Origin: an uncultured Bacteroidales bacterium
Lineage (GTDB): Bacteria > Bacteroidota > Bacteroidia > Bacteroidales > F082
Length of the DNA stretch: 64,000 bases
Reading direction: 5' to 3'
NCBI GenBank assembly: GCA_905234275.1
Contig: CAJOHD010000005.1
Coordinates: 172,620 to 236,619, forward strand
Positions within the stretch are counted from its first letter, which is position 1. Each line of letters opens with the position of its first letter. A program made the translations under genes and the position numbers. Below the pieces are notes generated by a model that did no database searches, was not told the DNA's origin, and was given only the letters and a program-made list of their open reading frames with translations. This document shows, in pieces, positions 3,512 to 51,037 of this stretch.

Positions 3512-3541
3512 CAAAAATACACATTGTTTTTTAATTTCCAA
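3512..3541 (-). promoter_or_regulatory. Bacteroidota-type promoter of the FG-GAP/T9SS gene
   Basis: On the minus strand TTG (3541-3539) is followed after 19 nt by TATTTTTG (3519-3512), matching the Bacteroidota -33/-7 consensus TTG-N19-TAnnTTTG. Transcription would start near 3506, about 25 nt before the ATG at 3482. The -33 end abuts the terminator of the etf operon. Confidence 0.6.
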
Positions 3542-3551
3542 CAAAAAAATA

Positions 3552-3589
3552 AAAAATTCCCGACAGAATTGCTTCCACCGGGAATTTTT
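3552..3589 (-). terminator. Rho-independent terminator after etfA
   Basis: AAAAATTCCCG (3552-3562) pairs with CGGGAATTTTT (3579-3589) across a 16-nt loop. Read on the minus strand the stem is followed by a T-rich tract (complement of 3541-3556). It lies about 55 nt past the etfA stop and would end the butyrate operon transcript. Confidence 0.6.
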
Positions 3590-3593
3590 GTAG

Positions 3594-3637
3594 TTGAAAC
3601 AAATGTTTCAAATTGGAGACGTTTCAGGAAACGTCTC
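3594..3637. repeat. Pair of small hairpins, one of the GTAGAGACG palindrome family
   Basis: TTGAAAC (3594-3600) pairs with GTTTCAA (3605-3611), and GAGACGTTTC (3616-3625) pairs perfectly with GAAACGTCTC (3628-3637) over a 2-nt loop. On the minus strand the second begins GTAGAGACG, the same start as the 34-bp palindrome at 8956-8989, so both probably belong to one dispersed repeat family. Confidence 0.55.
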
Positions 3638-3643
3638 TACACA

Positions 3644-4663
3644 TTATTTCTCCACTTCTTTCTTCAGTCTTTCTGTCAACATCGGAACGATCTTGTGCAA
3701 ATCGCCTACAATGCCAAGGTCAGCGGCTGAGAAGATTGGTGCGTATTTGTCCTTGTTGATGGCGATGATGAAGTCTGACTCCTCCATACCTGCGAGGTGC
3801 TGGATAGCGCCGGAGATACCGCATGCCATGTAAAGGGCCGGACGCACTGTCTTACCTGTCTGACCGACCTGGAAGCAGTGATCCATGATGCCTGCGTCAA
3901 CCATGGCACGTGATGATGACACCATGCCACCGAGGACATCTGCCAAAGCCTGAAGCTTGTTGAAACCTTCCTTGTCGTGAACGCCACGGCCACCAGAAAC
4001 CAAAATCTTGGCATCGGCGATGTCGTCAGCGCACTTGCAGTTCATCTTGGTCTCAATGACTTTGACTTTGAACTTGCTTGTGTCGAACTTCGGAGCAAAC
4101 ATTGTGATGGTGCCTTTTCTGCCAGCCTCACGGACGCGTTTCTGCATCACACCTGGACGCACTGTCGACATCTGAGGACGTGTGTTAGGGCAAAGAATTG
4201 TTGCCATCAGGTTGCCGCCGAATGCAGGACGTGTTGAACGGAACTGCTTCTCGCCTGTCTCCTCGACGATACCGATTTCAAGCTTGGTGCAGTCTGCTGT
4301 CAGACCGGTCTTCAAACGTGAAGCGATACGTGGTGCGAGGTCACGGCCGATGGTTGTTGCACCGTAAAGGACGATGCTTGGGCAACCGGCTGTAATCATC
4401 TGATACACAACCTGTGAGTACTGTTCTGTCAAGTAATCCTTGAGTTCTGGGCAGTCAGCGACGAGCACTTCGTCAGCACCCATCTCGATGAGGCTCTGAG
4501 CCTGATCTTTCACATTGTGACCAAGTAACATTGCCACGACTTTCTCGCCGAGAGCGTCGGCCAAGTCGCGTGCTTTACCTAAAAGTTCGTATGCTACGGA
4601 TTGAATCATACCTCCGCGCTGTTCTGCGAACACATAAACGTTTTTGTAATCTTTGATATCCAT
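3644..4663 (-). CDS. etfA: Electron transfer flavoprotein subunit alpha
   Basis: 339 aa, cytoplasmic. With EtfB it forms the FAD-containing heterodimer that exchanges electrons with acyl-CoA dehydrogenase. The N-terminal ETF domain is followed by the conserved C-terminal FAD domain: the SGRGV segment (as VSGGRGVHDKEGF), SSRAMVDAG, QVGQTGKTVRPALYMACGISGAIQH and INKDKYAPIFSAADLGIVGDL, all typical of EtfA. Length is normal for the family. The gene is last in the butyrate operon, 8 nt after etfB, with a terminator downstream. In anaerobes the EtfAB-Bcd complex can bifurcate electrons from NADH to crotonyl-CoA and ferredoxin; that activity is inferred from the pathway context, not visible in the sequence. 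Confidence 0.95.
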   Translation of the reverse strand: MDIKDYKNVYVFAEQRGGMIQSVAYELLGKARDLADALGEKVVAMLLGHNVKDQAQSLIEMGADEVLVADCPELKDYLTEQYSQVVYQMITAGCPSIVLYGATTIGRDLAPRIASRLKTGLTADCTKLEIGIVEETGEKQFRSTRPAFGGNLMATILCPNTRPQMSTVRPGVMQKRVREAGRKGTITMFAPKFDTSKFKVKVIETKMNCKCADDIADAKILVSGGRGVHDKEGFNKLQALADVLGGMVSSSRAMVDAGIMDHCFQVGQTGKTVRPALYMACGISGAIQHLAGMEESDFIIAINKDKYAPIFSAADLGIVGDLHKIVPMLTERLKKEVEK

Positions 4664-4671
4664 GGCTACTT

Positions 4672-5454
4672 TTAGATTAAATGTTTCTCTTTCAGTTTAT
4701 TAACAATGATTTCGACTGCTTCTTCCTCGCTCACTTCGAACACCTCACCTGGTGCCTTAAGCTGTTTCGGGAATGACTGCCACACCTTTGTCGGTGAGCC
4801 TTTCAAGCCGAGTTTGTTCTCGTCGACATCGAGTTTGTCGGCGCCCCAAACTTCAACTTCCTTGTCGTAAGCGTCAACGATGCCGGCGACTGTCATGTAA
4901 CGAGCTTCGAATGCTGATGCCAACACTGTGAGGACGCACTTGCCTTCGACTTCGAGAGTCTGCACGCTGTCTTCGTTTTCTTTCTTCACGATGAAGTTGC
5001 CGTTCTTTTCGCGTTCAGCGTCGATGACATATGAAACCTGTGGTAATCCGAGGTGTTCAGCCATCTCAGGACCGACCTGTGCTGTGTCACCGTCGATAGC
5101 CTGACGGCCAGCGATGATGAGGTCATAGTCCAAAGTCTTGATGGCGCCTGCCAATGCGTATGATGTTGCAAGAGTATCAGCACCAGCGAACTTTCTGTCG
5201 CTCAATAAAATAGCTCTGTCAACGCCCATAGCGAAAGCTTCTCTCAGGATGAGGTCGGCTTGTGGAGGTCCCATGGTGATAACTGTGACGTTAGCGCCGT
5301 ATTTGTCTTTCATCTGGAGTGCGAGTTCGAGACCGCCCTTGTCGTCAGGGTTCATGATGCTCGGAACGCCTTCACGGATAAGAGTATTCTTTACCGGATC
5401 GATTTTGATTTCGGTAGTATCAGGTACTTGCTTAATACAAACTATAATATTCAT
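4672..5454 (-). CDS. etfB: Electron transfer flavoprotein subunit beta
   Basis: 260 aa, cytoplasmic partner of EtfA. It starts MNIIVCIKQVPDTTEIKIDP, the usual EtfB opening, and contains NPDDKGGLELALQMKD, TMGPPQADLILREAFAMGVDRAILLSD and AGRQAIDGDTAQVGPEMAEHLGLPQVSYV, which shape the nucleotide site and recognition loop region. It sits 12 nt downstream of the acyl-CoA dehydrogenase gene and 8 nt upstream of etfA on the minus strand, the standard bcd-etfB-etfA order. A function in crotonyl-CoA reduction is supported by crt and hbd in the same operon. Confidence 0.95.
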   Translation of the reverse strand: MNIIVCIKQVPDTTEIKIDPVKNTLIREGVPSIMNPDDKGGLELALQMKDKYGANVTVITMGPPQADLILREAFAMGVDRAILLSDRKFAGADTLATSYALAGAIKTLDYDLIIAGRQAIDGDTAQVGPEMAEHLGLPQVSYVIDAEREKNGNFIVKKENEDSVQTLEVEGKCVLTVLASAFEARYMTVAGIVDAYDKEVEVWGADKLDVDENKLGLKGSPTKVWQSFPKQLKAPGEVFEVSEEEAVEIIVNKLKEKHLI

Positions 5455-5466
5455 AATCCTTCCCTC

Positions 5467-6578
5467 CTATTTAAATAAATGACCGGCGATAACCATTCTC
5501 TGAACCTCTGATGTACCTTCGTAGATCTCGGTAATCTTGGCGTCGCGCATCATGCGCTCGACCGGATATTCACGTGTGTAGCCGTAGCCGCCGTGGAACT
5601 GGACTGCCTTTGTGGTCACTTCCATTGCTGTCTCAGCTGCGAAGAGTTTTGCCATTGCTGCATCTGCCGAGTATGGGAGACCTTTGTCTTTCTTCCATGC
5701 TGCGCTTCTGACGAGCAAACGGGCTGCCTCGACCTTTGTCTTGAGGTCAGCCATCTGGAACTGTGTGTTCTGGAACTGTGCGATAGCCTTTCCGAACTGC
5801 TTACGTTCCTTGGTGTATTTCACTGTCTCATCCATAGCGCCTTGAGCGATGCCGAGAGCCTGTGAAGCGATACCGATACGACCGCCGTCGAGGGTCTTCA
5901 TAGCGATGTTGAAGCCCTTGCCGAGAGGTCCGAGGAGGTTTTCCTTCGGCACTTCGCAGTTTTCGAAAATCAACTCGCAGGTCGCGCTGCCGCGGATACC
6001 CATCTTCAGAAGCCTTTCTCAACGATGAATGCTGAGATGCCCTTGGTACCTTTGCTCTTATCTGTCATTGCCATGACGATGAACACATCGGCGTAAGCTG
6101 CGTTGGTGATGAAAATCTTTGTTCCGTTGAGGATGTATTTGTCGCCAGCGTCAACAGCCATTGTCTGCTGCATGGCTGCGTCGGTACCGGCGTTAGGCTC
6201 GGTGAGACCGAAAGCGCCGATCCATTCGCCTGATGCGAGCTTCGGCAAATATTTCATCTTCTGTTCCTCTGTTCCATTTTCGAGGATAGGTGCCATGCAC
6301 AATGATGTGTGAGCCGAGAGGATGACGCCTGTGGTGGCGCACACTCTTGAGAGCTCCTCAACAGCCATGATGTACATCTGCACTGATCCGCCGGCTCCGC
6401 CGTACTGGCGTGGTACCGGGATGCCCATCAAACCTAATTTCGCCATCTTCTTGACGGTCTCCATAGGGAAACGTTCTGTCTCGTCAACTTCGGCTGCCAA
6501 AGGCTTGACCTCGTTCTCTGCAAACGATCTGATCATCTGCAAGAACAATTCTTCTGTCTTTGAATAGCTAAAATCCAT
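5467..6578 (-). pseudogene. Butyryl-CoA-type acyl-CoA dehydrogenase, frame-disrupted in the middle
   Basis: Two adjacent reading frames together make one acyl-CoA dehydrogenase. The 5' part (6578-6006, 190 aa) has the N-terminal helical domain and FAD/substrate strands (GAFGLTEPNAGTDAAMQQT, ITNAAYADVFIVMA) and stops at ...IVEKGF-TGA. The 3' part (6003-5467, 178 aa) resumes with [16 protein letters not shown] and has the C-terminal helical domain with the catalytic Glu in [18 protein letters not shown]. Family members normally have about ten residues between the GF and KMGIRG segments; here only two bases separate GGCTTC from AAGATGGGT, so roughly 28 bases appear lost, shifting frame. In the pathway this enzyme reduces crotonyl-CoA to butyryl-CoA with EtfAB. 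Whether the break is real or an assembly error cannot be told here. Confidence 0.8.
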
Positions 6579-6588
6579 TATGTTTCAA

Positions 6589-7425
6589 TTAATATTTATA
6601 AAATCCTTCACCAGTTTTGCGTCCCAAAAGACCTGCACGCACCATCTTTCTCAAAAGTGGATGTGGGCGGTATTTCGGATCACCGAACTCGTTGTAAAGC
6701 ACCTCCATGATGGCGAGGTTGACATCGTTTCCGATGAGGTCGGCCAATGCGAGAGGTCCCATTGGGTGATTTGCGCCGAGCATCATGCACTTGTCGATAT
6801 CCTCTGCTGATGCGATGCCGTCGGCCAAGATACCGACCGCCTCGTTGATCATAGGGATGAGGATGCGGTTGACGACGAAACCTGGAGCTTCCTTCACCTC
6901 GACCGGCTGTTTGCCGATTGATGTGGCGAGGTCAACGATGCATTTTGTCACTTCGTCGCTTGTGAGCTGTCCCTTGATGACTTCCACCAATGCCATTCTG
7001 TCGGCCGGGTTGAAGAAGTGCATGCCGATGAACTGTGCAGGACGTGTTGTGCAGGCAGCGATTTCGGTGATTGACAATGATGATGAGTTTGTTGCGAAGA
7101 TTGCTTCCGGTTTGCAGATCTTGTCGAGTTCAGTGAACACCTCTTTCTTAAGAGCCATATCTTCTGATGCAGCCTCGATGACGAGGTCGGCGTCTTTGAA
7201 TGTGGCGTAGTCGGTGGTGGTGGTGATGTTCTTCAAAAGAGCGTCAACGACCTCTTGAGTCATCTTGCCTTTCTCAACGAGTTTTGCGTAACCTTTTGCG
7301 ATTGAACCCATAGCCTTGTCGATGCTGGCCTGAGTTCTGCTCTTCATGACGACCGGCATCTTAGCTGCGAAAGCCTTCACGATGCCTTTTGCCATGGTTC
7401 CTGTTCCGATAACGAATACTTTCAT
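6589..7425 (-). CDS. hbd: 3-hydroxybutyryl-CoA dehydrogenase
   Basis: 278 aa, cytoplasmic, NAD(P)-dependent interconversion of acetoacetyl-CoA and 3-hydroxybutyryl-CoA. The Rossmann domain opens [14 protein letters not shown] (GxGxMxxG). [13 protein letters not shown] and [21 protein letters not shown] carry the conserved Ser and the catalytic His of the HFFNP motif, and [15 protein letters not shown] plus [24 protein letters not shown] form the C-terminal dimerisation domain. Length fits the family. It precedes the acyl-CoA dehydrogenase gene by 10 nt; crt lies upstream but is separated from hbd by an unrelated exported-protein gene. Confidence 0.95.
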
Positions 7426-7459
7426 ATTTTTTAAATTTGATAATTTAGATTCATATAAA

Positions 7460-8131
7460 TTAATGCGAAGAAGCTACTGGGCGAATAGAGCAACCAACGC
7501 TCCGAATGATGCGTCTGACAGCGCAACCATCCGAATCGACTTTAAGAAAATACACTCCATATGAAGCGACTGTAAAAAGCGAACTCGACCAATAGTAGCC
7601 TTGAACCTTTTCATCTTCGTAGTCGATTTCATGTCGATAGCCAGCTGCAGGCAGGAAGAGACTGTTACCATTTGAAGCTGTGAGCAATACTCCGTTAACA
7701 CCATTTTGTGTTGTCCATGTAACGGTTGTGTTATTGTATAGTTCTTCAAAATCTTCCTCAGTTGGTATTCTCCAACCCTCACCCCAATTTGTTGTTGCAG
7801 CATCGTCTTCCGGAAGCAATAAGGTCAAGTTATCAATTGATCCCATTTTGCCAAGTTTAGATTTGCAGCAATATTTAGTTAGGGTTTTGTCACTTCCCTT
7901 GCAGTATTTGTAGTTGCTCCAATCATAATTGTCTTTGTTAGGTGTAGTCTCCCCCCAAGCAAAGAAATCACCATAATCTTCAGGTGTTTCTGCACCTATA
8001 TTACAAGTAGCCCACAAAATTCCGCTTGGTAAACCAAGGTCAACCCACTCATGACCATTAATAATTTGCCCATGCAACGGCATGATACAAACTGCTGCAC
8101 AAGCAAATACGAATAATAATGTCTTTTTCAT
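7460..8131 (-). CDS. Secreted FISUMP-like (Fibrobacter succinogenes major paralogous domain) protein
   Basis: 223 aa. A signal peptide ([21 protein letters not shown]) is followed by [32 protein letters not shown], the hallmark of the FISUMP/TIGR02145 family found in many copies in Bacteroidota and Fibrobacter, and later [15 protein letters not shown] and YWSSSL, also typical. Function is unknown; family members are extracellular. It sits on the same strand between crt and hbd, gaps 25 and 34 nt, inside an otherwise purely metabolic operon, and by eye is more AT-rich than its neighbours, which suggests a later insertion. The crt stop TAG also reads as a TAGTTTTG -7 element, but no good -33 accompanies it. 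Confidence 0.8.
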
Positions 8132-8156
8132 TGTGGTTGACCTTTTTATTACAAAA

Positions 8157-8939
8157 CTATTTTCCGGTGAAGTTAGGTTTACTCTTCGCGAGGAAAGCCT
8201 TCATCCCCTCTTTCTGGTCTTCTGTAGCGAAGCATTTTCCGAAGTTGCGGTTCTCCAGTTCGATGGCGTCGGCAGCAACCATGTCGTAGCTCTCGTTGAT
8301 GCATTCCTTAGCATATTTGATTGCCAAAGGTGCGTTGGCGACGATCTTCTGGGCTGTCTCGATGACTTTTTCCATCAAAACTTCAGGCTCATAAACTGCG
8401 TTCACCAAGCCGATGCGCAATGCTTCGTCGGCACGGATGGCCTTGCCAGTGTAAATCATCTCCTTGGCGTAGCCTTGTCCAATGAGCTTCGCGAGACGGT
8501 ATGTGCCGCTGAAACCTGGTGTGATACCCAGTCCAACCTCAGGCTGACCGAACTTGGCGTTGCTTGAGGCATAACGGAAGTCGCATGCCATTGCCAGCTC
8601 GCATCCGCCGCCGAGGCAGAATCCGTTGACGGCAGCTATGACAGGAATCGGGAGCAGCTCTATCTTACGGAAAGCGATGGCGCCGAGTTTACTGAACTCG
8701 TAGCCTTCTTTCTCGTAGAGATGCACCATCTCGGAGATATCTGCGCCAGCCACAAACGATTTCTCGCCGTCACCAGTGATGATGAGCACTCGAGTCTTCT
8801 TTGTGTCGAGGTTGCTGACGAAGTCGTCGATTTCCTTCAAAACCGTTGAATTCAGTGCATTCAACGATTTAGGAGCCGACACCGTCATGATGGTGATGCC
8901 GTTGTCTTTAAATTCGGTCTTTAAGAATTGATATTCCAT
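8157..8939 (-). CDS. crt: 3-hydroxybutyryl-CoA dehydratase (crotonase)
   Basis: 260 aa, cytoplasmic, crotonase superfamily. It has the oxyanion-hole segments SLNALNSTV and FVAGADISEM, and NGFCLGGGCELAMACDFRYASSNAKFGQPEVGLGITPGFSGTYRL with the two catalytic acidic positions (ELA...E of PEVGLG). The C-terminal helices (KYAKECINESYDM, FGKCFATEDQKEGMKAFLAKSKPNF) are typical. It should dehydrate 3-hydroxybutyryl-CoA to crotonyl-CoA between Hbd and the acyl-CoA dehydrogenase. A 34-bp perfect palindrome lies between this gene and the CoA-transferase gene upstream. Confidence 0.93.
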   Translation of the reverse strand: MEYQFLKTEFKDNGITIMTVSAPKSLNALNSTVLKEIDDFVSNLDTKKTRVLIITGDGEKSFVAGADISEMVHLYEKEGYEFSKLGAIAFRKIELLPIPVIAAVNGFCLGGGCELAMACDFRYASSNAKFGQPEVGLGITPGFSGTYRLAKLIGQGYAKEMIYTGKAIRADEALRIGLVNAVYEPEVLMEKVIETAQKIVANAPLAIKYAKECINESYDMVAADAIELENRNFGKCFATEDQKEGMKAFLAKSKPNFTGK

Positions 8940-8955
8940 AATTTTTAATTATTCT

Positions 8956-8989
8956 GTTGTAGAGACGGACGGCCGTCCGTCTCTACAAC
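8956..8989. repeat. Perfect 34-bp palindrome in the butyrate operon
   Basis: GTTGTAGAGACGGACGG is followed directly by its exact reverse complement. It fills most of the 55-bp gap between the CoA-transferase and crt genes. In RNA it would fold into a strong hairpin without a T-run, so it is more likely an RNA-processing or stability element, or a mobile palindrome, than a terminator. It shares GTAGAGACG with the hairpin at 3616-3640. Confidence 0.75.
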
Positions 8990-8994
8990 GAATA

Positions 8995-9654
8995 TTAATC
9001 AATCATTGATTTCAAATTCGGGCTAATTATCAATTTTGCCTCTGTTGCTTCCTGCACCTGCTCGACGGTAAATTCAGGATGGATCTCTGTGAGGACGATG
9101 CCTTCTTTGGTGATTTCCATCACACCCATCTCGGTGATGATCATGTTGACCTGACCTGCTGCTGTGAGAGGCAGTGTGCATTCCTTCAAGATCTTAGGAG
9201 CACCTTTCTGTGTGTGTTCCATGGTGAGGATAACGCGTTTTGCACCGACCACAAGGTCCATTGCGCCGCCCATACCTGGAGCCATCTTGCCCGGGATGAT
9301 CCAGTTGGCGAGGTTACCCTTCTCATCGACCTGCAATGCGCCGAGGAACGACACGTTGACGTGACCGCCGCGGATGATTGCGAATGATGTTGCAGAATCG
9401 AATGTGCAAGCGCCTGGTGTCAAGGTGATGAAACCGCCGCCTGCGTTGATGAGGTTCTTGTCTTCCTTGCCTTCTTCAGGTGTTGGGCCCATGCCCATAG
9501 CGCCGTTCTCGGTCTGCAGCGTCACTGAAACGCCTTTTGGAAGGTAGTTAGGGATCAATGTCGGGATACCGATACCAAGGTTCACTACATCGCCGTCATG
9601 CAGCTCTTTTGCCGCTCTCTTGGCGATAACTTCTCTCATTTCATTTTTATCCAT
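8995..9654 (-). CDS. CoA-transferase subunit B (butyryl-CoA:acetoacetate type)
   Basis: 219 aa, cytoplasmic, family I CoA-transferase beta subunit. It has [15 protein letters not shown] near the N-terminus, the catalytic-Glu motif ([12 protein letters not shown]), and [23 protein letters not shown] and [31 protein letters not shown], all standard for the AtoA/ScoB type. In lysine fermentation this enzyme exchanges CoA between butyryl-CoA and acetoacetate. The alpha subunit is not next to it and is not in the window, so it must be encoded elsewhere if the enzyme is active. It follows kamE with a 121-nt gap that holds a nested palindrome repeat. Confidence 0.9.
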
Positions 9655-43305: not shown

Positions 43306-43379
43306 GGACTAGTAGCTCAATTGGATAGAGTCCCTGACTACGGATCAGGCGGTTGTGGGTTCGACTCCCGCCTAGTTCA
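43306..43379 (+). tRNA. tRNA-Arg (ACG)
   Basis: 74 nt. Acceptor GGACTAG/CTAGTTC with one G-T pair, anticodon stem-loop CCTGACTACGGATCAGG, T-arm GTGGG-TTCGACT-CCCGC, discriminator A. The 3' 16 nt belong to the 17-bp attachment core of the element that follows, so the tRNA stays intact after integration. Confidence 0.95.
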
Positions 43380-43380
43380 C
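43364..43380. other. attL core (3' end of tRNA-Arg)
   Basis: ACTCCCGCCTAGTTCAC, identical to 51021-51037. Flanking bases differ on both sides (G/T before, A/T after), so the 17 bp define the shared core. Confidence 0.85.
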
Positions 43381-43387
43381 AACCTCG

Positions 43388-43424
43388 AACGCTAACATTT
43401 TGAAAATCAAGTGTTAGCGTTTTT
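43388..43424 (+). terminator. Element-borne terminator behind tRNA-Arg
   Basis: AACGCTAACA (43388-43397) pairs perfectly with TGTTAGCGTT (43412-43421) and runs into TTTTTC. It replaces the original tRNA terminator displaced to 51041. Confidence 0.75.
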
Positions 43425-43425
43425 C

Positions 43426-43457
43426 TTTTGTCCGTTTTTGTCCACCATTTGTCCACG
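43426..43457. promoter_or_regulatory. Three tandem putative integrase arm sites, left end
   Basis: TTTTGTCCG (43426-43434), TTTTGTCCACC (43436-43446) and ATTTGTCCACG (43447-43457) are spaced 10 and 11 bp, about one helical turn. The same TTTTGTCCACC recurs in both orientations at the right end (50852-50882). Together this fits arm-type sites of a tyrosine integrase. Confidence 0.6.
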
Positions 43458-43463
43458 AACACT

Positions 43464-43500
43464 AAAAAAGCACCTCAAAATGGCTTTTCGGGGTGCTTTT
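43464..43500 (-). terminator. Terminator of the element's minus-strand genes
   Basis: AAAAGCACC (43466-43474) pairs with GGTGCTTTT (43492-43500); on the minus strand the stem is followed by a T-run (complement of 43464-43469). It is about 90 nt past the 96-aa gene stop and insulates the att site. Confidence 0.65.
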
Positions 43501-43588
43501 CGTGTGTGTTAAATAAATGTCTTAATGACGATGCAAAGATAATAAAAATATTTGATCTGCCGGAGTGGACGCAAAAAACTATTTTTGT

Positions 43589-43879
43589 TTACAATCCTTT
43601 GAAATCCAGCAAACTCAATGAATTACTAGTAATATAGTCACTAACTTCTTTTGCGTAGACATCACAAAACGGCTGCCAGGCATCTAACAAGCGTTTTGTT
43701 ATGTCGCTTTCTACAACAGTATCATCATAAGGCGCGGCCAACAGTGTGATAGTATCGTTTAACAGACCCTCCATCTTAAGTATATTTGCAAATAGTTTGG
43801 CGGTCTCTTCTGTAATTGCAATTTGCCCGGTCTTTTGGGCTTCTTCAAACGCTTGTAGACGTGTTTTTTGTACTTCCAT
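43589..43879 (-). CDS. Small element protein, unknown function
   Basis: 96 aa, soluble, mostly helical (RLQAFEEAQKTGQIAITEETAKLFANILKMEGLLNDTITLLA). No family recognised. It is separated from the other element genes by 197 nt that hold its own promoter (43933-43902) and two identical dyads, so it may be expressed independently, for instance as a regulator or accessory factor; that is speculation. Confidence 0.6.
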   Translation of the reverse strand: MEVQKTRLQAFEEAQKTGQIAITEETAKLFANILKMEGLLNDTITLLAAPYDDTVVESDITKRLLDAWQPFCDVYAKEVSDYITSNSLSLLDFKGL

Positions 43880-43901
43880 GATATTTAATTTATTAGTTAA
43901 G

Positions 43902-43933
43902 CAAATTTAGCATTTTATTTTATTGATTGTCAA
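43902..43933 (-). promoter_or_regulatory. Promoter of the 96-aa element gene
   Basis: Minus strand TTG (43933-43931), 21 nt, TAAATTTG (43909-43902), 23 nt before the ATG at 43879. Confidence 0.5.
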
Positions 43934-43953
43934 TGCCTTGACAAATATTTTTT

Positions 43954-44066
43954 GGTTTCATAGTGAAAACAACAAGATTTTTACTGCCTTGCAATTCAAT
44001 TGGTTACAATTTTACACCATTTTAACGGTAAAAGCCCAAAACTTCCCCTGGTTTCATAGTGAAACC
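43954..44066. promoter_or_regulatory. Two operator-like dyads GGTTTCATAGTGAAA
   Basis: The same 15 bp occur at 43954-43968 and 44050-44064. The second extends to a perfect GGTTTCA-TAG-TGAAACC dyad (44050-44066). They lie upstream of the 96-aa gene promoter and just behind the 77-aa gene. A repressor or activator binding pair is likely; the protein is unknown. Confidence 0.55.
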
Positions 44067-44076
44067 GATTTTTACG

Positions 44077-44310
44077 CTAATTTCGTTGCTCAACCGTTTC
44101 TTTATTCATCGGCTCCGGCGGATCAACGTTTATTTCTTCCGCACTTCCCTCAATAAAAATATCTCGAGCAATTATTTTGCTTGCATATCTTTTTGTTATA
44201 CAAAAATCGTTGCCAACACGTTCAACGACTTCGATTACAAATGTTTCCGGGCTTGGTTTATTGCCTTTTGCAACGCTCATCAACAAATCAATATAACTGC
44301 TATTGCTCAT
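44077..44310 (-). CDS. Small element protein, unknown function
   Basis: 77 aa (SYIDLLMSVAKGNKPSPETFVIEVVERVGNDF...), soluble, no recognised family. Its start overlaps the end of the 113-aa DUF5681-like gene by 11 nt, which supports coupled translation and that it is a real gene. Last gene of the main element operon. Confidence 0.55.
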   Translation of the reverse strand: MSNSSYIDLLMSVAKGNKPSPETFVIEVVERVGNDFCITKRYASKIIARDIFIEGSAEEINVDPPEPMNKETVEQRN

Positions 44311-44641
44311 TGTTACTATCCTTGTTTAATTCCAAAATCTTATTTGTTATTTCATTTATTGCCTTTTCGGGCAACTCTTCAAGTAATCGCCTTAATTCGT
44401 TATATTCAGCCTCTTTCTGTTCTTTGATACTAACCGCCTGCAGTTTTGGAACTGAAAAGCTTAGAAGCTTCACAATAGCTGCAACATGGTCATCGGGTGA
44501 CAAACTTTTAAGATTTTCAATAAATTTATCTCTCTGGTCGTTGATAATTTCTTCAATCCATGTTTTGAGCTCAGTTGTCACTTTATTTTTAGTACCCTTT
44601 TTCCTTCCCCCTGTTTTGGGGCTGCCTTTTGTCCTGCTCAT
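44300..44641 (-). CDS. DUF5681-like / terminase-small-subunit-like phage protein
   Basis: 113 aa. The opening SPKTGGRKKGTKNKVTTELKTWIEEIINDQRDKFIENLKSLSPDD followed by LLSFSVPKLQAVS matches a protein type frequent beside terminase genes in Bacteroidota phages (basic GRKKGTKNK tail, helical domain, VPK). It may be a small terminase or DNA-packaging adaptor; no large terminase is present, which would fit a satellite that redirects a helper's packaging. Function is inferred from recalled family resemblance only. Confidence 0.6.
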   Translation of the reverse strand: MSRTKGSPKTGGRKKGTKNKVTTELKTWIEEIINDQRDKFIENLKSLSPDDHVAAIVKLLSFSVPKLQAVSIKEQKEAEYNELRRLLEELPEKAINEITNKILELNKDSNNEQ

Positions 44642-44671
44642 ATCTAATCTAATTTCTTCTATTTTAGGTTA

Positions 44672-45445
44672 TTACGACATAACTAGTCCCAGCCTTCTGT
44701 TTCTTTCTTCCAAAGCAGCTTCGTTAACACGTCTATTTTCCAATAAACAACGGATATCCTTACCCATTAACTTTAAGCTATCAAAATAATCTATAACGTA
44801 AAGATCTTTTGCTTTAGTAACAACCTCTTCGTTGTTATTGTCTAGCTGCTCCAATTCTTTGATAATGCTGGCTCTGTCAAACTCATTCCCCCTCCTCATT
44901 CTATCTGGCTTTAGTTCCTTTAATTTGTTTATAGCCCTATCAATATACTCTCGAGGCGGTGTGTCATAATCTATCATGCCCAAAAGAAACAAATCATCAA
45001 AAAGGAGACCGCCACAATATGACACCACCTGGCCACTGCAATGAAGATTATACATCACCGTAAGCAGGGCTTTAATATCGTATTCAGTTATCGGTCTTTT
45101 GCGATCCGTAGTATGACTCTGACAATTAATTTTATTATCCAGGCCTTTTTCCGACCTATAAGCACGGACAAACGCCAACACCTTATCTGCGTATATTCCT
45201 GCTCTAAACTCCCCATATTTGCCAGAAAACCCATTTTCCAGAGCCTCTTCAAGCTCCGACAATGATATATGTGGAAAACTTTTAATAAGCATCTCCGAAA
45301 CATCCTTTGTCAGTTCTACCAAAGTATCTGCATCTGGTGTTTTATAACCTCCCCTTCTATACCTGGTCAAAAGCAATTCCGCTAATTTAACCTGGTAATC
45401 TTCAGAATCAAACAAGGAGCAACTGTCTTTGTTATAACCTTCCAT
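44672..45445 (-). CDS. Phage replication-associated protein (primosome-like), tentative
   Basis: 257 aa, soluble. SLSELEEALENGFSGKYGEFRAGIYADKVLAFVRAYRSEKG is a motif I know from replication-region proteins of Bacteroidota phages (helix, GxyGe(f/y) turn, then AY..e). The C-terminal half is helical and charged (DRAINKLKELKPDRMRRGNEFDRASIIKELEQL). Its start overlaps the DUF6291-like gene end by 14 nt. A role in element replication is inferred from this and the neighbour. Confidence 0.55.
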   Translation of the reverse strand: MEGYNKDSCSLFDSEDYQVKLAELLLTRYRRGGYKTPDADTLVELTKDVSEMLIKSFPHISLSELEEALENGFSGKYGEFRAGIYADKVLAFVRAYRSEKGLDNKINCQSHTTDRKRPITEYDIKALLTVMYNLHCSGQVVSYCGGLLFDDLFLLGMIDYDTPPREYIDRAINKLKELKPDRMRRGNEFDRASIIKELEQLDNNNEEVVTKAKDLYVIDYFDSLKLMGKDIRCLLENRRVNEAALEERNRRLGLVMS

Positions 45446-45836
45446 TTTCTTTTAATTTTTCGATTAATTCTTTATCTTTTATCTTATTACTTATACTTAT
45501 ATCTTGCTGTGAGGCTACCTGTGGGGATTGCCCTTGAGGTAAATTTTTGCAATTTGTTGATTGTAAGGAGTTTATAAATCCATTTCGTTGCCTTTTAAGT
45601 AGTGAAAAAAGTATACCAATTTGTCTCCTTTTGGTATCCGAAAAGGTATCCAAATTGGGTTCTATTCCGTACACCAAATAGAGAAAGGAACGGTCGTAAT
45701 AATCACACCTTTCTTTGTCAGACTGTTGCAGAATAAAATCAATCACATTGTCATAAAGGGTCGCCCTCTCTTTAATCGGCGTCTTGCTTTCCTTTGCCTT
45801 ATCGATAGCCGTTTTAATATCCCTGCGTTTCATCAT
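45432..45836 (-). CDS. DUF6291-like phage protein
   Basis: About 134 aa from the ATG at 45836 (MMKRRDIKTAIDKAKE). This start overlaps the VRR-NUC TGA (ATGA) and has AGGAG 5 nt upstream, a strong Shine-Dalgarno unusual among the window's genes; a longer start at 45866 would overlap more. ERCDYYDRSFLYLVYGIEPNLDTFSDTKRRQIGILFSLLKRQRNGF matches the DUF6291 pattern (dY.G.eP.l......f.llk.q), found near phage replication genes. The C-terminal part is Gln/Ser-rich. Confidence 0.6.
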   Translation of the reverse strand: MMKRRDIKTAIDKAKESKTPIKERATLYDNVIDFILQQSDKERCDYYDRSFLYLVYGIEPNLDTFSDTKRRQIGILFSLLKRQRNGFINSLQSTNCKNLPQGQSPQVASQQDISISNKIKDKELIEKLKENGRL

Positions 45837-46336
45837 ACATCTCCTTTCGTATAGGAGCTCCACCAATTGACAAACTCCGTGAAGTTGTGAACGAGTAAAT
45901 AAACGCCTCCGGCTGCCTCAACCTCTTGTTGATATCTTCGCTGAGCGTCGCTCTGAACATCTCGACCGACCTTGATTTCTATTTTAACGCTGCGACCTTT
46001 GATTGTCGCCGATATGTCCGCACTTCCGTTGGTGGTCGTTGAATAAACCCAGCGAACCGACCCGATCTGACGCGTTCTACCTGTCACATCTTCGACGTTG
46101 TAACGCTCATCAATCATTCGCCCAGTGGTATTGATACGCTCAGCCTGGCAACCATGAAGCTTGAGCCATATAATGACACATTTTGTCAAGCCGTTAGCTG
46201 TGTCGTCTCGATAGCTCGCCTTTACGGGGTATGGGAAATTTGGGTAACACGCAAACTCTTTTTCATTCGCCAGGCGTTCTAGTTCCTTGACTGATTCCGG
46301 CTTTATATATCTTTTTGTTTTACGTCTTGTTTCCAT
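45833..46336 (-). CDS. VRR-NUC domain nuclease
   Basis: 167 aa. The C-terminal half is a VRR-NUC domain of the PD-(D/E)xK type: NGSADISATIKGRSVKIEIKVGRDVQSDAQRRYQQEVEAAGGVYLLVHNFTEFVNWW, with the D, ExK and SxxQ residues in place. The N-terminal half contains LTKCVIIWLKLHGCQAERINTTGR, the usual strand before the active site. Such stand-alone nucleases are common in phages, where they may process recombination or packaging intermediates. It follows the 680-aa gene by 3 nt and overlaps the next gene. Confidence 0.8.
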   Translation of the reverse strand: METRRKTKRYIKPESVKELERLANEKEFACYPNFPYPVKASYRDDTANGLTKCVIIWLKLHGCQAERINTTGRMIDERYNVEDVTGRTRQIGSVRWVYSTTTNGSADISATIKGRSVKIEIKVGRDVQSDAQRRYQQEVEAAGGVYLLVHNFTEFVNWWSSYTKGDV

Positions 46337-46339
46337 GTC

Positions 46340-48382
46340 CTAAAGTCTTAACAGTTTAACTTCTGAAGTCCGACGATCGCTGCTCCAGCGTACCGAGATT
46401 ATAGCGAAATATCTGCCGTATTTCTTCAGATACACTGGTTTTGTAAAGTTAATAGTCTTGAGTTCGTATTCGTTAAGCAAAAAATTATCAGTGATAATCA
46501 TTGGGCGTTTTATTATGTCTTGGTATTCCGCATAATGAGAATTTATCAAACTACCAGCCTCGAGTGATGGCGTAAAAGACAGTTTTATTTCATTTCCCCA
46601 TTTCACAACCCTCATTAAGCGGTATTCACAATCAACAAAAGCAGCTTTATCACCTTCCAGCTTGTATTGAGTTATTTTGTTGCCGCTCGATGCCGCCCAT
46701 GGGAATTCAATAATTGTTTTTTCTTCGTTGAGCGTCTCGTTTTCGACTATCAAAAAACCTTCTGAATTGTTTGGGTATTCCTCTTTCTCATCGACTTTGT
46801 AACAAACCTTATTACGCTGCGAATAATCACCTATAACAAAATTGGTTTCTTCTGCTGAGTCTCTCCCGGTGTCGATGTGTTTGTTACTCCAATCGTAGAC
46901 GTTACCGCTATCCGCATTGTCCGCAAATACGGTAAATGGCACAAAATCAACCGTCTCGGCATCGTTGGGGTTTGTTACGGCAAACAGGCCGTACATTTGG
47001 CAAACAGCTTTTATGTATTCTATTTGCGACATATCCGGCAAATTCTTAACGAGTTCAAAATCAACAAGCGGATACTGGTTGGTTGTGCCCTGTTGGTATG
47101 AATATGAAGCGAAATTGTCTTGAGTAGTGAGCTGAGCGTTTGTGGCAAGATATATATAAGAATCCATCCCACCGCTCCATGTTGGATTACTCGGCGGAGT
47201 GCTCCACGGGTGCTCCCAAACATCATCCGGGAATGATGGTAATTTTTTGCAATTGATAAACATATAGACAATTGGCCAACCAGTTGAGGAGGCTTCAACC
47301 GTAAATGTCTGATTTACGACGTACTTTATATTTGGTTCCCCGTCTCCTTGTGCTGGTGTGATATCTGTACGATTCCTCCCTGCAATGATAGTTAATTTAT
47401 AGTCGTTAGGGTTGTTAAGAATATCTGTCAAAAAAGCGGTAGTAAAACCGCCTGACTTAACACATTTTAGATAAATTGTGTTTATGGTAATATTTACGAC
47501 TCCTTCGCCTTTGTGGATAAACGCCGATTTTGTGTTATTGAAGTATTCAGCAAACTCCGGCTTCATACAGAAAAACCATTTTCTCTTTGTGTCCGTCGCT
47601 CCTCCATGAGTTATCAGCTTAAACACCGCGTCTATTTGTTGGGTTTCAAATGCTATTCCGTTGTTATTGTTTTTTGTCAAAACAATGGCGTTATTTTCCA
47701 TATCCGTTTTAAACTCCCATGGAATATTAAAATTAAGCTTGTTTTCTGCAGTGATTCTCTCCCAAATCTCACGAAGATTAACAAACGGATGAATATTGCA
47801 AAGCGATATCGTTTTATCGTTTCGCTCAACTCCATAGTCATACAATCCGAAAAATATACTACCCGCGCCAGGGTATGGGTTTTCACTTGGTGGGTAACAA
47901 TGACTAACACCGCTCAGCCACATGGGGTCACTGTGTTCGTTGTTTCCCGAACCCTCAAACCATTTTATATAATCGTATTCGCCTTGTGTTAAGTCCCTCA
48001 ATCCAGGCTTATTATCCAGCCAATCTTCAAGAGTATGCATAAGCCCAAACGATATCACAATACTATAGCTGTCACGTTTGCACGTGGTAAAGTAACACCA
48101 CGCCGGGCCGATCATATCAATTCCATTAACATAGACCCTACAATTAATTTTCCTATATGGTTTGCTACTATTACGAGACGGCACCTTGGCTAGATCGAGA
48201 ATCCTGTCATTGTTGATCGTGTGTGGGATATCGACCGTATATGAGGACGAACACGTTATATCCGAAATAGAAGTCAACAAGTTGGATCGATATTCAAGCG
48301 TTATGGGGGTGTTTTCCCAAAGGTCTAACGGCTGATAATCACCATCTGATATCTCAACCTCTATTACAACATTATTTTTCAT
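46340..48382 (-). CDS. Phage-structural-like protein (tail or receptor-binding candidate)
   Basis: 680 aa, the largest gene of the element, no signal peptide. The N-terminus (LWENTPITLEYRSNLLTSISD then SSSYTVDIPHTINNDRILDLA, and YRKINCRVYVNGIDM) resembles a module at the start of Bacteroidota phage structural proteins, in which a target value for a physical coordinate frame is followed by ...sys.ti.iP.t..N..i. The rest is rich in aromatic and polar residues (WFEGSGNN, NPTWSGGMDSY), beta-rich in appearance, and ends RWSSDRRTSEVKLLRL. I call it structural on this resemblance alone. It overlaps the HTH gene by 11 nt and is co-transcribed with the nuclease. Confidence 0.5.
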   Translation of the reverse strand: MKNNVVIEVEISDGDYQPLDLWENTPITLEYRSNLLTSISDITCSSSYTVDIPHTINNDRILDLAKVPSRNSSKPYRKINCRVYVNGIDMIGPAWCYFTTCKRDSYSIVISFGLMHTLEDWLDNKPGLRDLTQGEYDYIKWFEGSGNNEHSDPMWLSGVSHCYPPSENPYPGAGSIFFGLYDYGVERNDKTISLCNIHPFVNLREIWERITAENKLNFNIPWEFKTDMENNAIVLTKNNNNGIAFETQQIDAVFKLITHGGATDTKRKWFFCMKPEFAEYFNNTKSAFIHKGEGVVNITINTIYLKCVKSGGFTTAFLTDILNNPNDYKLTIIAGRNRTDITPAQGDGEPNIKYVVNQTFTVEASSTGWPIVYMFINCKKLPSFPDDVWEHPWSTPPSNPTWSGGMDSYIYLATNAQLTTQDNFASYSYQQGTTNQYPLVDFELVKNLPDMSQIEYIKAVCQMYGLFAVTNPNDAETVDFVPFTVFADNADSGNVYDWSNKHIDTGRDSAEETNFVIGDYSQRNKVCYKVDEKEEYPNNSEGFLIVENETLNEEKTIIEFPWAASSGNKITQYKLEGDKAAFVDCEYRLMRVVKWGNEIKLSFTPSLEAGSLINSHYAEYQDIIKRPMIITDNFLLNEYELKTINFTKPVYLKKYGRYFAIISVRWSSDRRTSEVKLLRL

Positions 48383-48692
48383 TACCGCTCCTTTCTTTCA
48401 ATAGCTGTTTTATGTCGCTCATCTTGTAACGTACTTTCCCTCCAATTCGCACCGGAACTAGGTAGCCGGATTTCTCCCATCGCCATAATGTAGGTTTGGA
48501 CACGCTCAGCATTTCAGCCACTTTGTCTGCGCTCGGATATGTCTCGGCCGCTGTGTCAGTTAGTTTCTGCTCCAGTGCCTTGACTGTCTCTGTCACTAGT
48601 TCCCTGTTTGCTTTGAGCAAATCCCTAACGTTGATAGTCACTTGCATTGTTGGGAATGCTTCTGCAAGTTCTGATAAATTCAATTCTGCCAT
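48372..48692 (-). CDS. Excisionase/MerR-like helix-turn-helix protein
   Basis: 106 aa. Residues about 52-98 form a HTH_17-type winged helix: YPSADKVAEMLSVSKPTLWRWEKSGYLVPVRIGGKVRYKMSDIKQLL. The N-terminal half is helical and could dimerise. Proteins of this type act as excisionases or regulators (AlpA/Xis-like) in mobile elements. First gene of the main element operon, with a TAATTTTG -7 element at 48804-48797 and an inverted repeat in its leader. Confidence 0.8.
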   Translation of the reverse strand: MAELNLSELAEAFPTMQVTINVRDLLKANRELVTETVKALEQKLTDTAAETYPSADKVAEMLSVSKPTLWRWEKSGYLVPVRIGGKVRYKMSDIKQLLKERSGNEK

Positions 48693-48724
48693 ATTGACAA
48701 CTTTTTGTTAATTGTTTCCGGCTT

Positions 48725-48750
48725 CGCTTTTTGATAGCGGACAAAAAGCG
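48725..48750. repeat. Inverted repeat in the leader of the HTH gene
   Basis: CGCTTTTTG (48725-48733) pairs perfectly with CAAAAAGCG (48742-48750) across 8 nt. It lies between the -7 element (48804-48797) and the ATG at 48692; an operator or leader hairpin is possible. Confidence 0.5.
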
Positions 48751-48841
48751 TTTGGCCGTGTCAATACCGACCGCTATTTCGGTTATGTTGACAATGCAAA
48801 ATTAGATATACGATGATTTTACGGCGGTGGTGCTGTGGTGG

Positions 48842-48884
48842 TAAAAACAAACCGCAACACACAGATTATTAGCGTATTGCGGTT
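48842..48884 (-). terminator. Terminator after the integrase/203-aa pair
   Basis: AACCGCAA (48850-48857) pairs with TTGCGGTT (48877-48884); on the minus strand the stem is followed by TTTGTTTTTAC. It separates the integrase transcript from the main operon. Confidence 0.6.
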
Positions 48885-48917
48885 AAATATCGGTGGTTAT
48901 TTTCTCCACCACCTAAT

Positions 48918-49529
48918 TTATGCTATTTTGTACGGATTAAATTCGTTGTTATGATCTTGATTTTGACAATTATAGTTGTCTAATAGCTCTTGTATTGCTT
49001 GTTTTGAATTAGATTTTTTTGATACGTATTGAGTTGAATAACCAATACTCTCGGCGGCTGCTTTTTTCCACTCTTTATCTGTCTTAATACGCCCTTGAAT
49101 AAATAAGATGATACCGCAAATTTTGTTTTTACTAAAATCTTTCAAACTTGAAAAATTGGCACTACTGACACTGTTTAACAAATCGGCATAATCTATCTTT
49201 AACGCTTGTGCCAAATTGTATAAAAGTTGCTTATCTTGCTCTGATATGGCCAGCTTTATTTGTTGAGCGTTTGAATGCTGGTACCAGTATTCGACATCTT
49301 CTTTTAGTCCTTCCGTTTGGGAATAGTGGGCAAAATCCTCGTTGATTGTGTCTATCACTTTCTTTTTAAATCCCAATTTTGATTTAAAGACATCGTCTTT
49401 AGACAGCTGTTTATATAAGCCGTCAAGCATCTCAACCCTTGCATCAGTACACTTGTACAACAAATCTCGATGAATAATTAAATTCAGTTTTACCCTGCTA
49501 ATACTTTTCATAATCTTTGTTTTAATCAT
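48918..49529 (-). CDS. Element protein of unknown function, coupled to integrase
   Basis: 203 aa, soluble, helical. Start at 49529 overlaps the integrase stop by 8 nt; an ATG at 49511 is an alternative. The first half (LIIHRDLLYKCTDARVEMLDGLYKQL...EDVEYWYQHSNAQQ) and a C-terminal HTH-like stretch (EWKKAAAESIGYSTQYVSKKSNSKQAIQELLDNY) suggest DNA binding, but I recognise no family. Coupling to the integrase suggests a role in integration control. Confidence 0.6.
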   Translation of the reverse strand: MIKTKIMKSISRVKLNLIIHRDLLYKCTDARVEMLDGLYKQLSKDDVFKSKLGFKKKVIDTINEDFAHYSQTEGLKEDVEYWYQHSNAQQIKLAISEQDKQLLYNLAQALKIDYADLLNSVSSANFSSLKDFSKNKICGIILFIQGRIKTDKEWKKAAAESIGYSTQYVSKKSNSKQAIQELLDNYNCQNQDHNNEFNPYKIA

Positions 49530-50805
49530 CCAGTAATTTCATCGCGTTTGCTTTTGCATTTTCCGTTATATCAATATACGGTCGCATTGCCTTATAGTCA
49601 CTGTGTCCCGTAAATTTCATAACCATTTGGGGTGCTATGCCTTTACTCAACGCGTTACAAATGAATGTCCTGCGCCCCGTGTGCGTTCCAATCCATTCAT
49701 ATTTAGGGCGTGTCTCCTCGACTCGCTTGCTTCCAACGTAATATGTTTTTGTTATTGGTTGGTCTATCCCGCAAATCTTTGCCATCTCTTTTAAATAGAT
49801 ATTCATTTTCTGATTGGTGATAACCGGTAGGGCTTTCGCGTTCGGATTATCTTCATCGTGATACTTTGCGAGTATTGCCCGCGTCGTATTATTCAGATTG
49901 ATTGTTATTGTGTCGTTTGTTTTTATGGTTGTGATGTGCAGCATATCATCATAAACGCTGTTTTGTGTCAGATGCTCAACGTCAGAATATCTCAACCCGG
50001 AATAACAGCAAAACAAAAAAACGTCTCTCACCTGTTCCAGTCTCTTATTATCAGAAAAATCAAAGTCTCGAACGGTTTTTAATTCGTCCTCATTCAGAAA
50101 TACAATCACTTTCTTTTCGGCCTTGACTCCTTTGGTTTTGCACACTCCCGGGGTGTACATTTCAAAGAATGTGTTTTGATTATATCCGTTGAGCGTCGCC
50201 CATCTCAAAAACCATTTTAACAGCTTTAAATTTTTTGCATTGGTTGAGTTCCTCATCTCTTTCGACTTCAAAAGAAAATCAGCAAAATCATCGAAAAACT
50301 CTTTGTCCAACATTTTAAAAGTGATAGCGAGCCCCCTGTCATCTTCATAACTTCTCAGATGATGCATCAACGTAATAAAACGCTCCGCCGTCGTTGCTTT
50401 CCAGTTGCTATCCTTGCTCTCGGTTTTAATAAATATGTCCATCACCTCAAAAAACGGCATCTCAGAGGCTCTTTTATGGCTTTCGGGGTGATTGTACTCG
50501 TCAATAACATCTTTCAACCAGTCGCGCGTAATGTCCTCACCCGGGATTTTTAAACTTTCCTCCTCGATGTGTTTGCACAACTCGTCAAGTTGTAATTTTA
50601 TTTTGTTGGCTTTTATGACTTCCGTCGTTTGGATTCTGTTAGTCGATTTAATTTGGTTGTTTTTCCTGTCCCAAAAGCTGGGAGTAATATAAATACCGCT
50701 TTTAGCACGCAAACGACAAGCACGCCCCATCGAACAACGGAGCATTATTTCACTTTCCCCGGTTGTGCGACTGATTTTGTCCGACAATGATAAGGTGATT
50801 TTCAT
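49522..50805 (-). CDS. Tyrosine integrase (site-specific recombinase)
   Basis: 427 aa, Bacteroidota phage/transposon integrase type. N-terminal arm-binding part (CRLRAKSGIYITPSFWDRKNNQIK), SAM-like core-binding domain (FFEVMDIFIKTESKDSNWKATTAERFITLMHHL), and a catalytic domain with Arg in CCYSGLRYSDVEHLT, Lys in ITTIKTNDTI, HxxR in GTHTGRRTFICNALSKGI, His in FTGHSDYKAM and Tyr in RPYIDI. It should recombine the tRNA-Arg att core. It sits at the tRNA-distal end, 216 nt from attR, with its promoter inside an arm-site pair. Confidence 0.92.
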   Translation of the reverse strand: MKITLSLSDKISRTTGESEIMLRCSMGRACRLRAKSGIYITPSFWDRKNNQIKSTNRIQTTEVIKANKIKLQLDELCKHIEEESLKIPGEDITRDWLKDVIDEYNHPESHKRASEMPFFEVMDIFIKTESKDSNWKATTAERFITLMHHLRSYEDDRGLAITFKMLDKEFFDDFADFLLKSKEMRNSTNAKNLKLLKWFLRWATLNGYNQNTFFEMYTPGVCKTKGVKAEKKVIVFLNEDELKTVRDFDFSDNKRLEQVRDVFLFCCYSGLRYSDVEHLTQNSVYDDMLHITTIKTNDTITINLNNTTRAILAKYHDEDNPNAKALPVITNQKMNIYLKEMAKICGIDQPITKTYYVGSKRVEETRPKYEWIGTHTGRRTFICNALSKGIAPQMVMKFTGHSDYKAMRPYIDITENAKANAMKLLDD

Positions 50806-50827
50806 AATTCATTTATTTAACACAATG

Positions 50828-50860
50828 CAAAGATAATAAATAATTTCATTTGGTGGACAA
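50828..50860 (-). promoter_or_regulatory. Integrase promoter overlapping an arm site
   Basis: Minus strand TTG (50860-50858), 22 nt, TATCTTTG (50835-50828), 23 nt before the ATG at 50805. The -33 TTG lies within the inverted arm motif GGTGGACAAAA, so integrase binding could repress its own transcription. Confidence 0.55.
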
Positions 50861-50882
50861 AAACACGAAAATTTTGTCCACC
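50852..50882. promoter_or_regulatory. Inverted pair of putative integrase arm sites, right end
   Basis: GGTGGACAAAA (50852-50862) and TTTTGTCCACC (50872-50882) are exact inverted copies separated by 9 bp; the same 11-mer is at 43436-43446 at the other end. Confidence 0.6.
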
Positions 50883-51020
50883 ACAACGAAATTTATTGAA
50901 ATTTAGTGTTATTCCATGAAATATAAAAGACGCTCAGCAGTTTCGTCAAACCCTTAAAATACACAATGTTTCAGCTATTGTTTACAAGTGTTTTAGTTTT
51001 TTGGTTCGTTTCATTCGGTT

Positions 51021-51037
51021 ACTCCCGCCTAGTTCAC
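51021..51037. other. attR core
   Basis: ACTCCCGCCTAGTTCAC, the second copy of the tRNA-Arg 3' end. The 270-nt gap 50806-51075 also holds the integrase promoter, arm sites and the displaced tRNA terminator; no gene is seen in it. Confidence 0.85.

Follow-up and report, generated by a model that had tools for sequence, protein, structure and literature searches.

The element in the tRNA-Arg gene

The window analysed here is a stretch of 64,000 nucleotides from an uncultured Bacteroidales bacterium (contig CAJOHD010000005.1, positions 172,620 to 236,619). It contains an element of 7,657 bp, which is flanked by 17-bp repeats of the 3' end of a tRNA-Arg gene and carries ten genes between the two att copies, all of them on the minus strand. 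An earlier note on this DNA had described a compact satellite-like element of these gene kinds at this tRNA gene, and the description proved to be accurate. The features are listed below. L011 denotes the copy of the element in the rumen metagenome-assembled genome (MAG) RUG13238, L012, L013 and L018 are elements of the same genus, and L070-L072 are sibling elements (aa, amino acids; HTH, helix-turn-helix).

43306..43380, plus strand: tRNA-Arg(acg), the integration target (ARAGORN); its 3' end is one att copy
43364..43380, no strand: att copy 1, 17 bp, identical to the tRNA 3' end (direct-repeat comparison)
43589..43879, minus strand: 96-aa gene at the att end, 35-41% identical in L012, L013 and L018
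44077..44310, minus strand: 77-aa gene (open reading frame)
44300..44641, minus strand: TerS-like protein, 113 aa, with phage homologues directly upstream of TerL
44672..45445, minus strand: 257-aa gene, conserved in the cassette (50% in L011, 25-26% in L070-L072)
45432..45866, minus strand: 144-aa gene of the exchangeable replication/packaging cassette, with relatives in hub-less siblings
45833..46336, minus strand: VRR-NUC-like nuclease candidate, 167 aa (phrog_93 endonuclease, 6e-5; conserved residues)
46340..48382, minus strand: predicted tail-tip (baseplate) hub protein, 680 aa (phage tail homologues, AlphaFold2/PDB matches, dN/dS, spacing)
47087..47668, minus strand: predicted jelly-roll insert of the hub, residues about 239-432, candidate receptor-binding head (sequence variability; PDB matches below the safe Z level)
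48372..48692, minus strand: HTH_17/excisionase (AlpA-like) regulator, 106 aa (PF12728, 2e-11; phrog_66, 3e-10)
48918..49529, minus strand: 203-aa gene directly after the integrase gene, 84% identical in L011
49522..50805, minus strand: tyrosine integrase, 427 aa (PF13102/PF00589/PF17293, phrog_1), 98.6% identical in L011
51021..51037, no strand: att copy 2, 17 bp, a perfect match to copy 1 (direct-repeat comparison)

The 17-bp duplication had already been proposed, and it was verified that exact copies of this sequence are present only at these two positions in the window. The GC content is 0.34-0.48 inside the element, mostly below 0.43, and 0.40-0.53 in the flanks (500-bp windows); the ranges overlap, and the element is lower on the whole. 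The integration site was compared in 20 loci that were examined via the neighbouring SbcC-type gene, in 10 of which the stretch examined did not include tRNA-Arg. The site was occupied in two (the window and genome G127) and empty in five, all from genomes of the same genus with a whole tRNA-Arg (L170, L172, L174, L175, L181). In these five the end of the SbcC-type neighbour lies about 41-47 bp beyond the tRNA; the corresponding distances in L177, L180 and L171 are 71, 91 and 373 bp, respectively. Because the tRNA-Arg site is empty in five relatives, the 7,657 bp represent an insertion, and it is confirmed that the tRNA-Arg element is a real integrated unit and more than a chance arrangement.

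Library scans agreed with the integrase and HTH assignments of the earlier note (PF00589 type; PF12728 and phrog_66) and with its statement that capsid and large terminase are lacking, as none of the ten proteins matched either family. The same scans of the ten proteins revealed no portal, tape-measure, tail chaperone, relaxase or mobilisation family, and neither Stl nor Pri-Rep was recognised, the HTH_17 regulator being present. The 203-, 144-, 257-, 77- and 96-aa proteins had no clear family in these scans. No PADLOC defence model matched any of 10 proteins, 8 of which were the window's own proteins other than the integrase and the HTH protein. A comparison of the nuclease and of the 113-, 257-, 126- (L018) and 156-aa (L013) proteins with phage records did not yield a match.

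For the proposed VRR-NUC nuclease of 167 aa, the nuclease character is backed by the PHROG endonuclease match and by residues D107, E120 and K122, which are invariant in 25 aligned rows of the family and presumably represent a PD-(D/E)XK-like pattern. The VRR-NUC family itself was matched weakly (PF08774 in 4 of the 25 family members, best E 0.0076), and a PDB sequence search with the nuclease yielded no match.

Related elements and distribution of the hub gene

It had been suggested to look for the same gene order at tRNA-Arg in other genomes, and this was successful. RUG13238 contains the same element in the same tRNA-Arg with its own att sites, the same 17-bp repeats lying 7,708 bp apart; in G127 the coordinates are the same as in L011 and the proteins are identical. 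The window and L011 are 91.5% identical over 5.2 kb from the integrase end and 95% identical at the other end, and the block between them is largely replaced. Only the 257-aa gene, which probably serves replication, has a relative in L011 (50%) among the 144-, 257- and 113-aa genes of this block. Neither the 144-aa nor the 96-aa protein has a match in L011, and relatives of the 144-aa protein with 36-38% identity are encoded by the hub-less elements L070 and L072.

Elements of the same gene order are present in three further genomes of the genus, i.e., G007 (L012), G018 (L013) and G030 (L017 and L018, on two contig ends). Their integrases are about 25% identical to that of the window. Copies of a tRNA-Leu sequence flank L012 and L013 at distances of about 9.1 and 8.2 kb, respectively. 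Pfam identified DUF3987 in L012, and L018 is credited with it on the basis of 91% identity. The gene directly after the integrase gene differs by lineage (window 48918-49529, 203 aa; L012 7726-8649, 307 aa). In its longest reading the 203-aa gene overlaps the integrase gene by 8 nt, and L012, L013 and L017 have genes of 307-309 aa in this slot, for which no similarity was detected.

The 680-aa gene occupies the same slot between the HTH and nuclease genes in all five elements, and it is intact in four of them. In G030, one contig end matches residues 1-402 of the L012 hub and a second one matches it from residue 584 onwards; an in-frame stop lies close to either end (C45 end and C15 end; L017, L018), and the two pieces were kept separate in the analysis. 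An insertion in the gene, strain variation of the head domain or misassembly could have caused this split.

With a hub profile, six genomes were matched both in the genus (99 genomes) and in the family (173 genomes), and the matches are the five elements and a prophage of G041. The nuclease profile gave 14 matches in 13 of the 99 genus genomes, representing 5 elements with hub and 9 without. One of the nine (L073) is cut at a contig end, and its genome has no hub match elsewhere. A DDE transposase gene (PF07592) lies inside the hub-less sibling L072 (9967-11196). In a survey of the order, 9 of 393 genomes, including that of the window, contained hub matches. Contexts were read for six of the eight others, G460 and G477 (E about 7e-4) being left out: the next gene is tape-measure-like in G262, G290, G201, G419 and G089, and in G466 such a gene lies beyond small open frames. 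In a sample of 396 genomes of the class, 7 contained relatives of the nuclease, among them that of the window itself, and in several of the other six contexts integrase, HTH and nuclease genes stand together (L081, L082, L083).

L081 (G905:C3:1-13000, 465-9353) has the gene order integrase, 280, HTH, nuclease, DnaD-like, helicase-like, 163, 98, tape measure (871 aa), 138 and TerS (PF03592, 4e-37). The tape measure matches phrog_3336 (7e-12) and, with an E value of 4e-46, the one that adjoins the L049 hub. The genes beyond TerS are unlike phage late genes, and no TerL match was found in the 28.5-kb contig. Thus, on the same backbone, this distant sibling has a tail part of another kind, which comes from related phages. 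A search for att repeats of L070-L072 and L081 found none in the stretches that were inspected. A nuclease scan of viral contigs yielded at least 80 loci, which were read as gene tables. Two phage-like IMG/VR contigs, L147 and L154, have HTH, nuclease, replication, TerS and TerL genes in this order, and this arrangement is a possible ancestor of the satellite backbone.

The 680-aa protein is a predicted baseplate hub

Structure prediction of the 680-aa protein, which had been recommended, yielded a baseplate-hub fold. The protein is predicted to be a hub of the gp27/gp44 type with an inserted TNF/C1q-like jelly roll. The hub fold spans the whole chain apart from the insert (AlphaFold2, PDB structure matches), and in phages the homologous gene lies beside the tape-measure gene. 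An alignment search of viral contigs retrieved 10 homologues; a single-sequence search had 2 pattern matches, none of which was confirmed. Against a viral fold library, 135 matches reached E <=0.001; of these, 50 were listed, most of them uncharacterised phage proteins and none with a tail name. A PDB sequence search with the hub profile gave one weak match, to the major structural protein 7x30 (E 0.055). The earlier proposal of a tail or receptor-binding protein is thus borne out in its first part, by the phage tail homologues and the predicted tail-tip hub.

As to receptor binding, the predicted jelly-roll insert may have this function. The insert (residues about 239-432) has a mean pairwise identity of 21%, compared with 44-48% elsewhere in the hub. 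Its PDB matches to TNF/C1q-like jelly rolls were below the safe Z level, and when folded alone it gave a low-confidence prediction.

Compared with phage hubs, the protein is not shortened and lacks none of their domains, the variable head included, and its dN/dS is 0.16 for the window versus L011 and 0.10 for L012 versus L013. Its gene overlaps the HTH gene by 11 nt and is separated from the nuclease gene by 3 nt, and its slot between these two genes lies outside any late-gene block. Residues 1-110 show only 64.5% nucleotide identity between the window and L011, with dS saturated, compared with 91-96% for the other four parts, which indicates that the N-terminal part has been exchanged. In gp27-type hubs the N-terminal part contributes to the ring in contact with the tube, so that fit to another helper phage is a possible reason. 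In a tree of 30 hubs, 16 of them without known context and that of G030 entered as an N-terminal piece, the five satellite rows form two groups with phage rows between them. Capture on two occasions and swapping by recombination would both fit this tree. The closest hub relative lies on a contig of 8,120 bp, and among 18 relatives of the TerS-like protein of L018, 8 have 6.6-7.8 kb as longest contig. These contigs are element-sized, as excised or packaged circles would be.

The 113-aa protein and packaging

The 113-aa protein did not match TerS in the family libraries. Starting from two relatives, those in L018 (126 aa) and L080 (112 aa), 44 IMG/VR loci were retrieved; 32 of these were examined, 27 of them with a readable gene at the match. 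In 15 of these 27 loci TerL was detected by BLAST among the next three genes; several of the 15 are near-copies, and the frame filter had dropped some neighbours. Pfam analysis of nine TerL-like neighbours identified eight terminases and left one (L205) without match, and the control L014 was also matched. A profile of 17 phage proteins (the 15 with TerL match, L193 and L202) matched the 113-aa protein of the window with an E value of 9.8e-14 as well as the L018 protein; no further match was obtained in the small set searched, which consisted of element proteins and filtered frames of the window. The family is present in 25 of 173 family genomes. Because phages often encode it immediately ahead of the large terminase, the 113-aa protein is regarded as TerS-like, by homology and position in phages and not by a curated TerS model. 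The packaging side of the replication and packaging genes that the earlier note had seen is thereby upheld; the 144- and 257-aa proteins of the cassette have no clear family.

In the same place RUG13238 encodes an unrelated TerS of 170 aa (phrog_309, E 7e-14), which is 42% identical to the TerS of hub-encoding IMG/VR phages (L027). Such a swap of the TerS type would be expected of a satellite that switches from one packaging partner to another. Only its position marks the 156-aa protein of L013, which was also read in L012, as TerS-like, and it showed no match to the 121-aa protein encoded ahead of TerL in L030. In L083 (G719), a compact element with integrase, a TerS gene (8162-9084; GP3_package, phrog_606) adjoins the nuclease gene.

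A probable phage satellite with its own tail tip

At the level of sequence, a satellite is supported by integration, recurrence in another species, the integrase, the AlpA-like regulator, the exchange of TerS, the intact hub among early genes and the lack of large terminase, capsid, portal and tape-measure families. It is fairly probable that the element is a phage satellite that is packaged by a helper via its own TerS-like protein and would replace the helper's hub with its own, resulting in chimeric particles. After helper infection, the AlpA-like protein and the integrase would excise the element, and the 144/257 cassette would replicate it. The TerS-like protein would direct the DNA into helper heads, and the satellite hub would be built into the helper tail tip in place of the helper hub. 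The benefit could be the access to different recipients via the head domain, or the escape from interference aimed at the helper hub. A parasite rather than a phage may thus help to decide which cells are entered.

The satellite interpretation of the earlier note is supported. It had named two results that would speak against it, and neither was found: the 680-aa protein is phage-related by its tail homologues and predicted fold, and in RUG13238 and the relatives of the same order the element occurs whole rather than as a piece of a prophage. With regard to a resident helper, no PF03237 terminase was found in the window genome (G000), other terminase families not having been searched for; the same search was positive in 6 of 14 control genomes. 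The hub profile matches only the satellite copy in this genome.

Several points leave some doubt about a satellite with its own tail tip. The evidence for the jelly roll is moderate, the hub is optional, as nine siblings have the same backbone without it, many of the genomes compared are fragmentary assemblies, and the hub copy of G030 may be broken or misassembled. The last point leaves the estimate unchanged, because it rests on the four intact hub copies.

Three other explanations were considered. Within a phage satellite, the hub could act as a decoy, or in a dominant-negative manner, and thereby ruin the tails of phages that compete with it, as Tai or Rta do by interfering with tail assembly, instead of serving the element's own particles. 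Tail-targeting defence genes are carried by phage-inducible chromosomal islands (PICIs), P4-like elements and PLE11 (PMC11364771, PMC12987554). The hub is also an optional accessory gene, and its overlap with the early HTH gene makes early expression plausible. However, a decoy is unlikely, as the hub has retained the full length and all phage-hub domains including the variable head, with low dN/dS, and no PADLOC model matches it. Moreover, the available text describes Tai as targeting the tail fibre and not as a copy of a tail part (PMC11364771).

Somewhat less likely still is an autonomous or conjugation-mobilised element with phage passenger genes, in which the use of the hub would be unrelated to particles. 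It would fit that siblings are common (13 of 99 genus genomes by the nuclease) and that transfer by phage is so far an assumption. On the other hand, relaxase and mobilisation families are missing among the ten proteins, and two unrelated genes of TerS type hold the same place in sister elements. TerS is not known to serve any purpose other than packaging.

A complete or recently reduced prophage was rejected, since a late block with TerL, portal, capsid and tape measure is lacking; prophage L014 of the same genus illustrates such a block. A reduced or decaying prophage, left without the majority of its late genes, which had been seen as the main alternative, is largely refuted and very improbable: the tail gene, the possibly broken G030 copy and the early order from HTH to TerL shared with L147 and L154 would agree with it, but five elements from two lineages, which differ in integrase (25% identical) and att site, share one compact organisation, nine hub-less siblings (one cut at a contig end) share the backbone, the hub stands between early genes and not beside its late-operon neighbours, and dN/dS was low in both pairs that were compared.

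It is generally assumed that a satellite has the host range of its helper, because the tail is borrowed. The literature searched held one experimental exception, the PLEs (2026; PMC12987554). A satellite from another phylum, with the hub as its single recognised tail gene, a variable head and hub-less siblings, turns the self-chosen recipient into a directly testable question, and it also shows how PICI-like satellites are built in the Bacteroidota, which dominate in gut and rumen. It is tempting to speculate further, at somewhat less than an even chance, that Bacteroidota hold a widespread, hitherto undescribed minimal satellite class (integrase, AlpA-like HTH, nuclease, replication, TerS) that customises stolen tails part by part, with a hub and receptor-binding jelly-roll head in one lineage and a tape measure from the same phage group in another. 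If so, the hub satellite would itself fix the host range of the particle it rides.

Comparison with known systems

PICIs have an integrase, an excisionase or AlpA-type regulator, replication genes and TerS, and no capsid genes. The window element resembles them in its att repeats, integrase, AlpA-like regulator and own TerS-like gene, and in the lack of TerL, capsid and portal families. It differs in that no Stl or Pri-Rep was recognised, in its hub gene and in its Bacteroidota host. Capsid-forming PICIs (cf-PICIs) make their own capsids, whereas the window element gave no match to families of capsid, portal or large terminase. Some cf-PICIs are depicted with putative tape-measure genes (legend of Extended Data Fig. 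10, PMC12987554).

The phage-inducible chromosomal minimalist islands (PICMIs) of Vibrionaceae are likewise very small and have an integrase, an AlpA (PF05930/PF12728; here PF12728) and a gene overlapping int (PMC10803314). The DUF3987 of L012 and L018 is a further feature in common. Their iolg, which is needed for excision there, can be likened to the lineage-variable gene after the integrase, and they often have a single gene between alpA and primase (PMC10803314). In contrast, the window element has no DUF3987/DUF5906 primase, uses tRNA-Arg and not fis, and carries a TerS-like gene and a hub. Because several defining features are lacking or were not recognised, the element is filed in neither group, although as a satellite it would work like a PICI or PICMI.

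Tail-related genes are found on other small elements. The Charybdis elements (2025 preprint) are small and encode tail- or protrusion-like proteins, and the preprint discusses the possibility that a satellite provides the tail elements while hijacking the capsid (PMC12324425). They are marine, with archaeal hosts, different proteins and, according to the available text, no terminase or recognisable replication gene (PMC12324425). Tai is also satellite-borne and acts on phage tails, yet it blocks tail assembly (PMC11364771), whereas the window element has a full-length copy of a tail part.

An experimental precedent is offered by the PLEs, satellites of phage ICP1 in Vibrio cholerae that carry tail genes (the hub in PLE11) and borrow the rest of the particle (PMC12987554). 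PLE11 virions contain the tape measure and hub of PLE without those of ICP1 (Nature 2026; PMC12987554). The authors called the PLEs the first such family and stated that the benefit of swapping tail parts needs further work (PMC12987554). All PLEs have a tape measure and a chaperone (tmp, tac), and not all have the hub; in the window element neither of the two families was found, and the hub is its only recognised tail gene, accompanied by a TerS-like gene. At 680 aa, the hub here is of the gp27 type and likely bears a jelly-roll head; the hub of ICP1, by contrast, was probed in a blot on pieces smaller than 25 kDa. The PLE backbone is not related to that of the window element, and neither is the phylum of the host. 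A published Bacteroidota satellite with a tail gene was not found in the open-licence literature searched. The suggestion of a new kind of satellite has to be narrowed, as PLE tail parts (2026), putative cf-PICI tape measures and PICI-like TerS were already known. As a tail-modifying satellite, the element would add a second phylum and a backbone of separate origin, and its hub would be the one tail gene recognised.

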